Shown: piece after piece, positions 41,104 to 48,093 of the stretch
Layout of the letters: every line of letters starts with the position of its first letter
Numbering within the stretch: the first letter of the stretch is position 1
NCBI GenBank assembly: GCA_015065545.1
Contig: SVQA01000005.1
Location: 93,337-157,336 of the forward strand
Direction of reading: 5' to 3'
Source: Oscillospiraceae bacterium
GTDB lineage: Bacteria > Bacillota > Clostridia > Oscillospirales > Acutalibacteraceae
Length of the DNA: 64,000 nucleotides
Program-made: the position numbers and the translations under genes
The notes under the pieces: generated by a model
Told to the model about the DNA's origin: nothing
Seen by the model: only the letters and a program-made list of their open reading frames with translations
The model's database searches: none

Positions 41104-41778
41104 ATGTTAAGTATTCTGATTGCCGATGACGACAAAAACACAAGACTCCTTTTAAAAGCCCTGCTTGAAGCCGAAAAATACAATGTGTTCACAGCCAAGG
41201 ACGGAGAAGAAGCCTTGAAGCTCCTCGAAAAAGAGCATGTAGACTTAATCGTACTGGATATTATGATGCCTAAGATGGATGGCTATGAGTTCACAAAGGC
41301 TCTGCGTGATGCAGGAAGTGAACTCCCTATCCTTATGGTATCTGCAAAGCAGTATCCCGAGGACAAACGTAGAGGCTTTCTTATGGGCACAGATGATTAT
41401 ATGACAAAGCCTATTGATGAAGAAGAAATGCTCCTGCGTATAAAAGCTCTTTTGCGTCGTGCTAAAATTGCAACAGAGCGAAAAATCGTTATAGGTGATG
41501 TAGTACTTGACTATGATTCACTCACCGTTACAAAGGGCGAAGAAACACAGGAACTTCCTCAAAAGGAATTTTTGCTTCTTTACAAACTCCTCTCCTACCC
41601 CGGCAAAATTTTTACCCGCATTCAGCTTATGGACGAGATATGGGGCTGTGAATGTGATACAGGCTGGGAAACCGTTACCGTACACATCGGAAGACTCAGA
41701 AAACGTTTCGAAAATTTTAAGGAGTTCCAAATTGAATCTGTAAGAGGACTGGGCTATAAGGCGGTAAAGAAAGTATGA
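41104..41778 (+). CDS. OmpR-family response regulator
   Basis: LIADDDKNTRLLLKALLE...LIVLDIMMPKMDGYEF...winged-helix C-terminus. Confidence 0.94.
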   Translation: MLSILIADDDKNTRLLLKALLEAEKYNVFTAKDGEEALKLLEKEHVDLIVLDIMMPKMDGYEFTKALRDAGSELPILMVSAKQYPEDKRRGFLMGTDDYMTKPIDEEEMLLRIKALLRRAKIATERKIVIGDVVLDYDSLTVTKGEETQELPQKEFLLLYKLLSYPGKIFTRIQLMDEIWGCECDTGWETVTVHIGRLRKRFENFKEFQIESVRGLGYKAVKKV

Positions 41779-42854
41779 AAAACAAAGAACAAGTAAACAA
41801 AGTCACTTACCGAAACCGACTATCTCTCACCTTGGTGTTTGCACTTCTGATTTTTGCGGTTTTGCTACTATCAATTGCCATATTCGTTGCTGCTACCTTT
41901 ACAATTTCAAAGCTCGGCTGGTTAGAGGCAGACAAGATAAACAACCCCGACATCATCACCCTTATAATCGATGTGGGTCTTATAAGTATTGCAGTAGGCT
42001 TTATTGTTGCGATGCTCACACTCAAGTACCCGCTTAAACCCTTCAATCAGATTATCACCCAGATGAACCGACTTGCTGCAGGCGACTTCAAAGCAAGGCT
42101 TCACTTCTCAAAGCCTATCGCCTCTCACCCTGCTTTTAAAGAAACCGCTGACAGCTTTAATAAAATGGCAGAAGATCTCGAGGGCAGTCAGCTTCTGCGT
42201 TCTGACTTCATAAACAATATATCCCACGAATTCAAAACTCCCATTGTTTCCATAGCGGGTTTTGCAAAGCTTCTAAAAAGAGACGACTTAACCGATGATC
42301 AAAAGAAAGAGTACATCAATATTATCGAAGAAGAATCGCTCCGACTTGCGTCTATGGCAACAAATGTACTCAATCTTACAAAGGTCGAAAATCAGTCTAT
42401 CCTCACCGAAGTATCAGAGTTTAATTTAACAGAGCAAATTCGCTCCTGCCTTCTTCTTTTGGAGAATAAATGGGCAAAGAAAAATATAGAGCCTTTCATC
42501 ACAATGGAAGAGCTGCAGATAAATGCTAACGAGGAGCTTTTAAAGCAGGTCTGGATAAATCTTCTGGACAATGCCATTAAATTTGCTCCCGAAAGCACTG
42601 AAATTTCCATAGGCTCTGTTATCACAGGTAATAATATCAGACTCTCTATCAAAAATCAGGGAGAAATCGCCGAAGAATACAAGAGCAAAATCTTCAACCG
42701 TTTTTATCAGGCAGACGAGTCACACTCAAAAGAGGGTAACGGAGTAGGTCTTGCAATAGTCAAAAAAATCGTAGAGCTTCACAACGGAAATGTCGATGTA
42801 AAATCCGAAGACGGCTTTGTAGAATTCCTCGTAACTCTGCCAAAAGCTCAATAA
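41775..42854 (+). CDS. HAMP-domain sensor histidine kinase
   Basis: FINNISHEFKTPIVSIAGFAKLL...GNGVGLAIVKKIVELHNG; overlaps RR stop. Confidence 0.94.
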   Translation: MKNKEQVNKVTYRNRLSLTLVFALLIFAVLLLSIAIFVAATFTISKLGWLEADKINNPDIITLIIDVGLISIAVGFIVAMLTLKYPLKPFNQIITQMNRLAAGDFKARLHFSKPIASHPAFKETADSFNKMAEDLEGSQLLRSDFINNISHEFKTPIVSIAGFAKLLKRDDLTDDQKKEYINIIEEESLRLASMATNVLNLTKVENQSILTEVSEFNLTEQIRSCLLLLENKWAKKNIEPFITMEELQINANEELLKQVWINLLDNAIKFAPESTEISIGSVITGNNIRLSIKNQGEIAEEYKSKIFNRFYQADESHSKEGNGVGLAIVKKIVELHNGNVDVKSEDGFVEFLVTLPKAQ

Positions 42855-42861
42855 CACTTTC

Positions 42862-42892
42862 AAAAGAGCATCCTTTTCGGGTGCTCTTTTCT
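42862..42892 (+). terminator. Rho-independent terminator
   Basis: aaaagagcatccttttcgggtgctctttt. Confidence 0.85.
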
Positions 42893-43012: not shown

Positions 43013-44662
43013 ATGAACACTACTAAACTTTACGGCAAAATGTATCTGCAGATGCTTTTAGGCGGTGCCACTACACTCTCAGAGAATGTAGAAAGGCTCA
43101 ACGACCTTAACGTATTCCCTGTGGCAGACGGCGATACAGGCACAAATATGTACAGAACTATGCAGGGCGGTCTTATGGAGGCTACAACTGAGGACAGCGA
43201 CAGCATAGGCAAGGTTTCCAAAGCGTTTGCAAAAGGAATCCTCCTTTCTGCAAGAGGCAACTCCGGGGTTATACTTTCTCAGATTTTTACAGGCATCAAC
43301 GAGATACTCAAATATTTTGATAAAGCAACACCCATACAGCTTGCCGACGCTTACAGAAAGGGTATCGAAAAAGCCTACTCAGCTGTACAGAATCCCACCG
43401 AAGGCACTATACTTACCGTGTTCAGAGAGAGCACCGAATATGCCGCAAATATTATGAACGAAAACTCAACCATTGAGGATTTCTTTGAGCTTCACATCAG
43501 AGAAGCAAGACGCTCCTTAGAACGCACAAAAGAGCTTCTTCCGGTACTTGCAGAGGCAGATGTTGTGGACTCGGGTGCCGCAGGCTATCTTGCAGTTGCA
43601 GAGGGTATGTACAAAGCCCTTACAGGTGAGCTTATTCCCGAAGAGTTCCAGCCTGCACAAGCAGAAACAACTCCCGCTATCAACATAGATTCCTTTACCC
43701 GTGACAGCGTACTTGAGTTCGGCTACTGTACAGAATTTCTTATAAGACTTACCACCGCAAAGGTAGACCCCGACACATTTAATGTTCAGACTGTTATCAA
43801 CGACCTCAACACCCTTGGCGGTGAAAGCATCGTTGCATACAAACAAGATGATATTGTGAAGGTACACGTTCACACCTTCACTCCCGGTTTAATCCTTGCA
43901 AAGATGCAGGAGTACGGCGAATTCCTAACAGTTAAGGTTGAGAATATGTCCGTAGGCCATTCAGAGAGTGAAAAGCAAAAAGACAAAAAGAAAAAGCGTA
44001 AAAAGTTCTCTGTTGTATCCGTGTCCACAGGCGATGGTATTTCTGCCCTCTTCACCGATATGGGTGTTGACCGAATAATCAGCGGCGGTCAGACCCAGAA
44101 CCCCTCCACAGAAGAGTTTATTGAGGCTTTCTCCGATTGTAGCAGCGAACACATTATCGTTCTGCCCAACAACAAAAATATCATCCTTGCCGCAAAGCAG
44201 GCAGGTAAAATCTACACAGATGCACAGGTGCACGTTGTCGAAACCAAAAATCTTGCAGAAGGCTACTGTGCCCTTGCTGTTATCAACCCCGGCTTTACAG
44301 ATATGCAAGTACTCACAGACAGTGCTCTGCGAGCCGCAAAGGATGTTCAAAGCATTGAGGTAACAAAGGCTATACGAAATGCCACCATTGACGGAGTTAA
44401 CGTTAAGAAAGACGACTATATGGCAATCGGTGCAGGCAAGGTTCAGTCCACTGCCCCAACTGCCGAGGAAGCTGTGCTCAAAGCTTTAGACTCCCTTGAC
44501 ACCGACCTTGCAGAGATAATTACACTCTTTGCAGGCAAGAATGTAACAGCAGATAAAAGAGCCGCTCTCACAGAAAAGCTCGAGGAAATCTACGACGAAT
44601 GTGAAATCGTAGTTTACGAAGGCGGTCAGGAAGTTTACGACTACTATGTTGCAGTAGAATAA
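43013..44662 (+). CDS. fakA: DAK2 domain fatty acid kinase catalytic subunit (FakA/YloV-like)
   Basis: LNDLNVFPVADGDTGTNMYRTM...ARGNSGVILSQIFTG...VVDSGAAGY. Confidence 0.92.
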   Translation: MNTTKLYGKMYLQMLLGGATTLSENVERLNDLNVFPVADGDTGTNMYRTMQGGLMEATTEDSDSIGKVSKAFAKGILLSARGNSGVILSQIFTGINEILKYFDKATPIQLADAYRKGIEKAYSAVQNPTEGTILTVFRESTEYAANIMNENSTIEDFFELHIREARRSLERTKELLPVLAEADVVDSGAAGYLAVAEGMYKALTGELIPEEFQPAQAETTPAINIDSFTRDSVLEFGYCTEFLIRLTTAKVDPDTFNVQTVINDLNTLGGESIVAYKQDDIVKVHVHTFTPGLILAKMQEYGEFLTVKVENMSVGHSESEKQKDKKKKRKKFSVVSVSTGDGISALFTDMGVDRIISGGQTQNPSTEEFIEAFSDCSSEHIIVLPNNKNIILAAKQAGKIYTDAQVHVVETKNLAEGYCALAVINPGFTDMQVLTDSALRAAKDVQSIEVTKAIRNATIDGVNVKKDDYMAIGAGKVQSTAPTAEEAVLKALDSLDTDLAEIITLFAGKNVTADKRAALTEKLEEIYDECEIVVYEGGQEVYDYYVAVE

Positions 44663-44682
44663 TTTAAAGAGAGGTAAAATTT

Positions 44683-45582
44683 ATGTCTAAAATTAAGATT
44701 ATGTGCACATCCACAGGATGTATTGAATATGCTCCCGAAAGATACAGAGAAATGGATATTGAGATTATCCGTGTACTCGTTCACTTCAACGGCAAGGAAT
44801 ATAAAGAGGGTATCGGTCTTGACCCTGTTGAATTCTATAACTTCCTCGAAACAGTAGAGGATCCCAAGTCAAACCTCCCCCATACCGATATGCCCAATAC
44901 AGAGGACATTCGTGCAGCATTCGACAAAGCAATTGCAGACGGCTATGACGAAGCAATTGTATTTGCTATTTCAGCGGGTCTTGGCGGCACTTATAATAAA
45001 ATCTGCTTGGTTGCAAAAGAATATGAAGGCAAGCTCAAAATAAATGTTGTAGATACCGAAATCACCTGCTTCGGTGAAGGTCTGCTTGCTATCAAGGCTT
45101 ATGAATTTGCACAGAAGGGTATGTCTTCCGAGGATATTCTCAAAGAAATCAACTGGATGAAACGTCATCAGGAATTAATCGGTATTGACGGAAAACTCGA
45201 TTACCTTATTTATAACGGAAGACTCAAGGGCGGAAAAGCCTTTATGGGTCAGCTTCTCAACATTTGTCCTGTTATTCACATGGATAAAGGCGAGATTGTT
45301 CCCCTTGAAAGTGTACGCACACAGAAGAAAGCTCTTGCCCGTACCTGCGAGTTATTAAAAGAAAAGCTGGGTGACAGAAATCCCGAGGACTATGTTCTCT
45401 GGCATATCTACACAGGCCGTTCCGTTATCGATAAGCTCCTTGAAATTGAGAAGAAATACGACATAAAAACTAACCATGAGGATGTTATTATGTCTCCTGT
45501 AAGCGGATGTCACAACGGACCTTGGCTTGCAGCTTACGGTTACACATTCCTTCGTCGCGAAGACGAGCCTCTGGAGGACTAA
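44683..45582 (+). CDS. DegV family fatty-acid-binding protein (FakB-like)
   Basis: DegV fold features; LPHTDMPNTEDIRAAFDKAIADGYDEAIVFAISAGLGGTYN; adjacent to fakA. Confidence 0.88.
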   Translation: MSKIKIMCTSTGCIEYAPERYREMDIEIIRVLVHFNGKEYKEGIGLDPVEFYNFLETVEDPKSNLPHTDMPNTEDIRAAFDKAIADGYDEAIVFAISAGLGGTYNKICLVAKEYEGKLKINVVDTEITCFGEGLLAIKAYEFAQKGMSSEDILKEINWMKRHQELIGIDGKLDYLIYNGRLKGGKAFMGQLLNICPVIHMDKGEIVPLESVRTQKKALARTCELLKEKLGDRNPEDYVLWHIYTGRSVIDKLLEIEKKYDIKTNHEDVIMSPVSGCHNGPWLAAYGYTFLRREDEPLED

Positions 45583-45583
45583 T

Positions 45584-46726
45584 ATGATAACCGTTAAAGA
45601 GGTAAAAAGCCAAAAGGATATAAAGGAGTTTATTGAGTTTCCTTTAAAACTTTATAAGAAAAACCCTTTCTTTGTTCCTCCTCTTTACAGTGATGAAAAG
45701 AAACTTTTAAACCGTGAAAAATCCACCCCTGCTTTTGATACAGTCTATTTTCTTTGCAAAAAAGACGGAAAGGTTGCAGGAAGAATTCAGGGTATAATTC
45801 AAAAGCAATATAACGAACTCCATAATTGCTCTCAAGTACGATTCAACCGATTCGACTCTATCAATGACAAAGACGTAGCCTCTGCTCTCTTTAAAGCAGT
45901 AGAGGATTGGGCTAAAAAAAGGGGTATGACCCATATCTGCGGTCCTTTAGGCTTCAGCGATTTGGACAGAGAGGGACTTCTTATCGAGGGCTTTGAGGAA
46001 GAATCCACCTTCGAGGAGCAATACAGCTTCCCCTACTACCCTGCACTTGTAGAGAGCTTCGGATTCAAGAAGGATGCAGACTGGCTGGAATATGAACTGA
46101 CTCTCCCAAAGGAACGCAACCAAATCCTTGAGCGAGTTGCAAAGCGTTCTATGGAAATGAACAAGCTTCACGTTGCCGACACAAGCATCCCAAAGAAAAA
46201 GTATATTGAAAAATACCGCAACGGTTTCTTTGATTGCCTTGACGAATGTTATCGGGAGCTTTATGGCACAGTGCCTATCACAAAAGAGGCACAGGATGAG
46301 CTTGTCAGTCAATTTATGATGATACTCAACAAAAAGTATCTTGTGTTTATCTGCGACGAAAAGGAAGAGGTAGTAGCCTTCGGAATGTGTCTGCCTGCCA
46401 TAGGCAACGCACTCAAGGGTACAAGCGGAAAACTCACTCCCATAAACCTTTTGCGGATATTAAAAACAGTCAAGAATCCTAAAACCATTGACCTTGCTCT
46501 TGTAGCGGTGCGTCCCAAATACCAGAAAAAAGGTGTAAACGCCATTTTGCTTATGGATATGCTTAGTATTCTTGAGAGCGGTAAAATAAAAAAATTCGAA
46601 ACAAACTTAAATCTTGAGACTAACACCGCCGTTGTGGCTCAGTGGAAGTATTTTTCATCTCGTCAACACAAACGCAGACGCTCTTACATTAAACAAATAG
46701 GAGAACAAAATGCTCAAAAAAATTAA
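45584..46726 (+). CDS. YghO-like GNAT-family N-acyltransferase
   Basis: IEFPLKLYKKNPFFVPPLYSDEKKLLNR...AGRIQGIIQKQYNE...GPLGFSDLDREGLLIEGFEE...PYYPALVESFGFKKDADW; start adjusted to MITVKEV. Confidence 0.8.
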   Translation: MITVKEVKSQKDIKEFIEFPLKLYKKNPFFVPPLYSDEKKLLNREKSTPAFDTVYFLCKKDGKVAGRIQGIIQKQYNELHNCSQVRFNRFDSINDKDVASALFKAVEDWAKKRGMTHICGPLGFSDLDREGLLIEGFEEESTFEEQYSFPYYPALVESFGFKKDADWLEYELTLPKERNQILERVAKRSMEMNKLHVADTSIPKKKYIEKYRNGFFDCLDECYRELYGTVPITKEAQDELVSQFMMILNKKYLVFICDEKEEVVAFGMCLPAIGNALKGTSGKLTPINLLRILKTVKNPKTIDLALVAVRPKYQKKGVNAILLMDMLSILESGKIKKFETNLNLETNTAVVAQWKYFSSRQHKRRRSYIKQIGEQNAQKN

Positions 46727-46931
46727 GGAAATCATAAAAAGCATTTTACCAAGCATCGATATATCACAAATCAGCGAAAGCACTCGTTTTTCTGATGACC
46801 TGTGTTTTGATTCAATAAATATGATGGTGTTTTCCATAGAGCTCGAAGAAACCTTTTGCTTTAAATTTTCTCATCCTGTAGTTTTCGAAACCTTAGGCGA
46901 TGTCTGCGGCTATCTTGACAGCAGAATATGA
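46710..46931 (+). CDS. Acyl carrier protein
   Basis: 73 aa, FSDDLCFDSINMMVFSIELEETF (DSx 4'-phosphopantetheine site); overlaps GNAT gene. Confidence 0.88.
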   Translation: MLKKIKEIIKSILPSIDISQISESTRFSDDLCFDSINMMVFSIELEETFCFKFSHPVVFETLGDVCGYLDSRI

Positions 46932-46950
46932 AATCATAATATAGTATATT

Positions 46951-46990
46951 AAAAAATGCCATCTCGCTTGATTGCGAGATGGCATTTTTT
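46951..46990 (+). terminator. Rho-independent terminator
   Basis: aaaaaatgccatctcgcttgattgcgagatggcatttttt. Confidence 0.9.
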
Positions 46991-47028
46991 ACACACTGAT
47001 AATTATATTTACAGCACTCTGTTACTGC

Positions 47029-48093
47029 TTAATTTTTTTTAGATTTAGCCTTAACCTTATCAACAATAAAGCTAAACAAAATCGAAGCTATAATAGTTAT
47101 TGAATAGTAGAGCACAATTCTAACAGACAAAGGCAACCCATATCCTTTACTTTCGAGAAAACTTTTACACAACCAGATAAATGTACCGACACTCCAGTGA
47201 ATGGTATAAACAGGCAGCGAAATCTTACCCAAATAAGATAAGAACTTGCCCTGAAGCTTTATGGAATAGCTGCAACCTGACAGCATAATCAGAACACCTA
47301 TACCCAACAAAACCACTATAATGTTAAACTTATCAACACGGTTCAAAGCTGTAAGCACAATAGTCGAACCAAAGCAGAACAATTCAACAATAGTCAACAA
47401 GAATCGTGTTTTCGCAGATATATAAACTTCTGACAATCTTGATGCAACAAAGTACAGGAAACATCCAACAGATAAATAACAATATGCCCTCATAATCGCA
47501 TCAAACCCATCAGCCGAAGGGAACACTCCGCCACGAGTAACAAAAATCAATACCGGCACAAACCATGATAACAAATAAGCAAAAACTTCTTTAAATCGTA
47601 GGTACAGAAAGCACAACAAAGGCATAGCAATAAGCATTGCAGAAATATACCATATAGGCGGTAGAAATCTGGTACTTGTCAAAGGAGCAATCATCAAAAG
47701 CTCCAAGGGCAAGTTAGTTAATATTTTACCAATCTGACTTATGCCCCCTGAAGAAACCAAGCAAGAAACAATACGCAGAAGATACTCCAACAATATGCAG
47801 GGAACAACATAGAACATCAGAGATTTATATTTTCGGAATGTATATTTAAAAGCCTCTTTCGCAGAAGATTCTATACTCACACTGCTATGTAAATTCTCAA
47901 AATGCTGTATCATAAAAAAGCCGGAAATCATAAAGAAAAATTCAACATAAATAAGAGCTGCATGAAAAGGAGCATTTACGAAACCAATCTGATAAATATG
48001 GTGTGCCATAATTAAAAGTGAAAACACAAACCTTAGCAAATCACATGAGCCATATCTACCATTAACTCTACTTAACAGTTTATTATTTGTCAT
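47029..48093 (-). CDS. Acyltransferase family 3 (OafA-like) membrane protein
   Basis: CDLLRFVFSLLIMAHHIYQ...VEFFFMISGFFMIQHF. Confidence 0.88.
   Translation of the reverse strand: MTNNKLLSRVNGRYGSCDLLRFVFSLLIMAHHIYQIGFVNAPFHAALIYVEFFFMISGFFMIQHFENLHSSVSIESSAKEAFKYTFRKYKSLMFYVVPCILLEYLLRIVSCLVSSGGISQIGKILTNLPLELLMIAPLTSTRFLPPIWYISAMLIAMPLLCFLYLRFKEVFAYLLSWFVPVLIFVTRGGVFPSADGFDAIMRAYCYLSVGCFLYFVASRLSEVYISAKTRFLLTIVELFCFGSTIVLTALNRVDKFNIIVVLLGIGVLIMLSGCSYSIKLQGKFLSYLGKISLPVYTIHWSVGTFIWLCKSFLESKGYGLPLSVRIVLYYSITIIASILFSFIVDKVKAKSKKN

Follow-up and report, generated by a model that had tools for sequence, protein, structure and literature searches.

In the rhodobacterial ceramide pathway (aasR, acpR, spt, cerR, cerS/yghO), a free fatty acid is activated by an acyl-ACP synthetase and carried by a dedicated acyl carrier protein (ACP) that is encoded near a GNAT of the YghO/CerS family (PMC9386255, PMC11324152); this ACP is known to serve serine palmitoyltransferase (SPT). 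Escherichia coli yghO is listed with CC_1154, the Caulobacter CerS, as an N-acyltransferase of ceramide synthesis (PMC9386255). In the E. coli record, yghO lies beside genes for an aminotransferase-class (SPT-like) protein, an ACP, an epimerase, and a fatty acyl-AMP ligase—a logic of acyl activation, private ACP, and GNAT that is shared with the cassette described here. The FakAB-PlsX system with the auxiliary carrier AcpB (Enterococcus faecalis, Lactobacillales) offers a second likeness, with FakA, a DegV-type FakB, PlsX, and a plsX-linked ACP that feed phospholipid synthesis and FabT regulation; the E. faecalis PlsX efficiently charges AcpB from acyl-phosphate (PMC6509188). FeeM, OlsB, and GlsB, which comprise N-acyl amino acid synthases and aminolipid N-acyltransferases, are GNAT-type enzymes of N-acyl amino acid synthesis, and acyl-ACP donors have been discussed for this group (PMC11631085).

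Here we describe a fakA-degV-GNAT-acp cassette in a window of 64,000 nucleotides from a gut Clostridia bacterium, the whole stretch of DNA that was analyzed; its parts are known, but their combination is new. The cassette differs from the rhodobacterial pathway in that activation would proceed by FakA/FakB/PlsX, in that cerR is not part of it, and in that SPT, the enzyme the rhodobacterial ACP serves, was not found in the genome to which the window belongs. In contrast to the Enterococcus system, the FakAB-type parts are co-operonic with a GNAT of an N-acyltransferase family and are duplicated relative to housekeeping copies. An acyl-phosphate system known from phospholipid synthesis would thus use a private ACP to supply an acyltransferase resembling ceramide synthase; if this is true, amide lipids are produced from fatty acids of the host or the diet by ruminant-gut Clostridia that apparently lack fatty acid synthesis of their own. 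The literature that we searched, which includes few subscription journals, contained no description of the cassette and no report of such amide lipids in ruminant-gut Clostridia.

All four genes are co-directional on the + strand and have intact ORFs in the window. The predicted catalytic subunit of a fatty acid kinase, FakA (43013..44662, 549 aa), is followed after 20 nt by degV (44683..45582, 299 aa; PF02645), for a FakB-type fatty-acid binding protein, and after a further 1 nt by the gene for the YghO/bacterial-ceramide-synthase-like tandem GNAT (45584..46726, 380 aa), whose start codon we corrected to the ATG at 45584. The predicted dedicated ACP (46710..46931, 73 aa; PF00550; DS motif, Ser35) begins 17 nt inside the GNAT ORF, and a GGAG precedes its start. 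A bidirectional intrinsic terminator on the + strand (about 46950..46992; 18-bp stem, −29.3 kcal/mol, z −10) closes the cassette; a simple terminator scanner missed it, probably owing to pairing of its T tract with an A tract. Both ORF inspection and folding agree with the first-pass annotation, which had noted four co-directional genes, a GNAT/acp overlap, and a strong terminator. Convergent with the cassette is an Acyl_transf_3 gene (47029-48093, − strand); such a gene also occurs downstream in one type II relative, but it was rejected as a conserved cassette partner.

FakA contains the domains PF02734, PF21645, and PF13684 (DAK2, FakA-like_M, and FakA-like_C); it scores above the cut-off of TIGR03599 and below that of the NF038248 equivalog, and its PDB matches are 7w7h and the domains of Staphylococcus aureus FakA. 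More than 95% of 45 cassette FakAs keep residues N33, D39, D41, C239, H285, and H287; by motif these match S. aureus Asn32, Asp38, Asp40, Cys240, His282, and His284, which have been shown or argued to be important (PMC9136124). DegV matches DegV and FakB1 structures in the PDB and scores below the cut-off of NF038249, the FakB1 equivalog. Positions T68, S97, R180, H277, and G279 are conserved in both cassette DegV types, and we take the Thr, Ser, and His (T68, S97, and H277) to be FakB ligand-site residues. By motif, we equate R180 with the catalytic FakB Arg173 (PMC9136124). The phosphopantetheine serine (DS motif) is kept in all 42 of the distinct cassette ACPs, and the phosphopantetheinyl transferase family is represented by one match in the window genome. 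This sole ACPS-family match is a 333-aa protein with LRAT and phosphopantetheinyl transferase domains on contig C15 of the same genome (L065:1432-2690), where an acyl-AMP-ligase-like protein and an ACP are also encoded. Fatty-acid activation of the FakAB type by the cassette is well supported by homology.

Conservation of the gene set was assessed at two scales. Among 150 genomes of the window genome's family, nine have a relative of the GNAT, and it was in their neighborhoods that plsX came to light as a cassette gene. A wider scan with one genome per species returned 470 GNAT relatives; the best 80 of these were retained, and they come mostly from metagenome-assembled Clostridia of ruminant and other animal guts, with a few labelled Bacilli or Spirochaetes. 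All neighborhood counts refer to these best-matching relatives: HMM-based gene calling gave 88 loci, or 86 distinct ones once L079 and L134, duplicates of the G126 and G037 contigs, were removed. At the 86 distinct loci degV, adjoining the GNAT, occurs 59 times, fakA 47, acp 42, and plsX 38, and the degV-GNAT pair is the tightest in the survey. The first-pass annotation had named a lack of conserved gene order in relatives as refuting its proposal, but the order is conserved, and fakA, plsX, degV, GNAT, and acp occur together at 35 of the 86. The commonest order, fakA-plsX-degV-GNAT-acp, is found at 31 of the 88 loci, plus two variants (a doubled degV and a split fakA); fakA-degV-GNAT-plsX-acp is complete at three, with further loci incomplete or interrupted by contig ends. 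Seven of the 88 loci have degV-GNAT alone, and 27 have the GNAT without any partner; no consistent partner gene emerged from the neighborhoods of these orphan GNATs. Purifying selection acts on the cassette genes, with dN/dS of about 0.04-0.27 at unsaturated dS; such selection, and a gene order found again in dozens of species, show that the cassette is not a chance arrangement. None of the GNAT-locus relatives checked lies on a viral contig.

Two DegV types, about 24% identical, go with GNATs of two clades. Independent assembly of the two cassette types was considered, but on a smaller set a tree test did not reject a single DegV clade (p 0.345), so that separate origins of the DegVs are not supported. 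A response regulator of the OmpR/PhoB type (41104..41778, + strand; PF00072 and PF00486) and its paired sensor histidine kinase (41775..42854, + strand; HisKA and HATPase_c) lie upstream of fakA in 13 distinct type I loci, the window and 12 others. The pair may be dedicated to regulating the cassette. In the window a hairpin terminator (42862..42890, + strand; 12-bp stem, −16.8 kcal/mol, z −6.1) separates the pair from fakA. A type I sub-clade (L083, L085, L086, L102, and L143) keeps fakA-degV-GNAT and lacks plsX and acp; at least some of its members have a small predicted lipoprotein-like ORF between fakA and degV, and L102 is truncated on the GNAT side. At L101, where the cassette is otherwise complete, fakA appears as two ORFs, through a frameshift or an assembly error.

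Most relatives encode plsX within the cassette; the window and L074, its nearest relative by GNAT, do not. Since L074 likewise lacks a cassette plsX, the branch leading to the two probably lost the gene, with the window organism relying on the single plsX of its genome, on contig C4. The position of plsX varies between the two gene orders, which indicates that it was retained with the cassette despite rearrangement; in type II relatives it adjoins acp. In trees, cassette PlsX proteins fall into clades apart from housekeeping PlsX, type I far from it, and the tested genomes with a cassette PlsX (G126, G037, and G066) have a second PlsX as well; for these reasons the cassette PlsX proteins look dedicated. 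Canonical invariant PlsX positions kept in at least 80% of members number 39 of 55 in type I and 50 of 55 in type II. A similar tree test for PlsX did not reject one clade (p 0.32). Together with the conserved catalytic residues, the plsX genes in the cassettes of relatives strengthen the earlier proposal that the locus is a dedicated activation module.

The GNAT belongs, by full-length sequence comparison, to the CerS/YghO family. In tblastn it matches the annotated E. coli YghO along 99% of its length with 26.6% identity (E 3e-32), an end-to-end homology that bears out the YghO-like label of the first-pass annotation, and the two proteins share invariant positions in a 9-sequence alignment. 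The only Pfam match is PF00583 (Acetyltransf_1), in the C-terminal half; Acetyltransf_5 (PF13444) and OlsB-type matches, which would recall FeeM, OlsB, and GlsB, are absent from its Pfam hits.

The reading that we favor, with a confidence only a little past the midpoint, is a route from exogenous fatty acid to an N-acyl product. DegV, as FakB, would bind the fatty acid for phosphorylation by FakA. From the resulting acyl-phosphate, PlsX, whose gene lies in the cassette of most relatives and elsewhere in the window genome, would load the acyl group onto the phosphopantetheine arm of the cassette's own ACP. The tandem GNAT would pass it from acyl-ACP to a candidate amine, so that an N-acyl lipid is formed. 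The FakAB chemistry and ACP priming are indicated by homology and by the conservation of catalytic residues, and the PlsX step onto the cassette ACP is suggested by gene association; from family and context we infer the use of acyl-ACP by the GNAT, the amine acceptor, and the lipid product. The neighborhood survey revealed no conserved acceptor-making gene in the cassette. GNAT enzymes as a group use many donors and acceptors. Since 27 of the 88 loci have no partner and some have degV only, the GNAT may in some cases work without acyl-ACP.

The window genome (1.9 Mb) is 90.9% complete, so that each single absence carries some risk; within it we found no match to FabF/FabB ketoacyl synthase (controls 14/14) or to FabH (KAS III; controls 11/14). 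FASII is apparently missing entirely from the organism, which, with these synthases not found, must import fatty acids. The first-pass annotation had spoken of a dedicated "non-FAS" ACP; this qualifier has to be reworded where FASII is apparently absent and no ACP serves it. In such a cell fakA, degV, plsX, and acp might simply feed exogenous fatty acids into phospholipids, the GNAT being accessory or regulatory; in Lactobacillales, plsX-acp pairs handle exogenous fatty acids, and such a role has been proposed for the FAS-less Lactobacillus johnsonii (PMC6509188). We consider this unlikely, however, because the genome has other copies for that task—three FakA, five DegV, one PlsX, and several ACPs in total—and a second locus, degV-fakA-MFS transporter-acyltransferase (PF01553), is better suited to phospholipid work. 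These further copies indicate that the cassette is an additional and apparently specialized one. The tight degV-GNAT pairing also argues against an accessory GNAT, as does a same-genus relative (G074) that lacks both ketoacyl synthase and GNAT. Across the family, a ketoacyl-synthase match is missing in 96 of 150 genomes, suggesting that loss of fatty acid synthesis is widespread, and it is found in none of the nine genomes with the GNAT; loss of FASII as the cause of the cassette was nevertheless rejected, the association being weak given these 96 genomes and G074.

In another explanation, the GNAT is a ceramide synthase that N-acylates imported sphingoid bases (from host, diet, or Bacteroides) with cassette-activated fatty acids, with no need for SPT. 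The first-pass annotation had noted no SPT in the window, and this holds genome-wide: TIGR01825, for alpha-oxoamine synthases, matched the 90.9% complete genome only partially, at 22.8 bits, and the enzyme is also absent from most cassette relatives tested. De novo ceramide was therefore rejected for this genome; with FabF/FabB and FabH likewise not found, its synthesis is unlikely, as is an acceptor sphingoid base made de novo. Salvage agrees with these absences, with the homology of the GNAT to CerS/YghO, and with the origin of the related loci, largely ruminant gut genomes, where sphingoid bases could be available; PMC11324152 likewise suggests that CerS might serve bacteria in sphingolipid salvage, a point it leaves open. 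However, the identity to YghO is low, family-level homology does not fix the acceptor, no uptake or reductase gene was found in the cassette, and the Bacteroides and Vescimonas homologues of the GNAT have unrelated neighbor genes, so that we rate this explanation as doubtful, somewhat below phospholipid incorporation. If it were true, ceramide-like lipids would be made by bacteria that apparently produce neither fatty acid nor sphingoid base. The cassette makes the question of bacterial sphingolipid salvage (PMC11324152) directly testable with a few purified proteins.

The AlphaFold2 model of the GNAT (pLDDT 89.6, pTM 0.86) resembles tandem GNATs in the PDB; a sequence search of the PDB gave no homologue. 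The closest solved folds, at about 10-14% identity, are mostly acetyl-CoA enzymes, which would suit a GNAT that regulates fatty-acid use by modifying, with acetyl-CoA, either a small metabolite or one of the proteins FakB, ACP, and PlsX, but this is improbable given that its sequence kinship is with the CerS/YghO family and that the operon ACP would be unnecessary. YghO itself is among the clones tested for lysine acetylation in PMC6199490. One locus shows a further arrangement: at L147 (2494-4164), where no fakA was detected, a 556-aa protein that is acyl-AMP/CoA ligase-like by the start of its sequence is encoded upstream of degV-GNAT-acp, and is possibly an alternative activation route.
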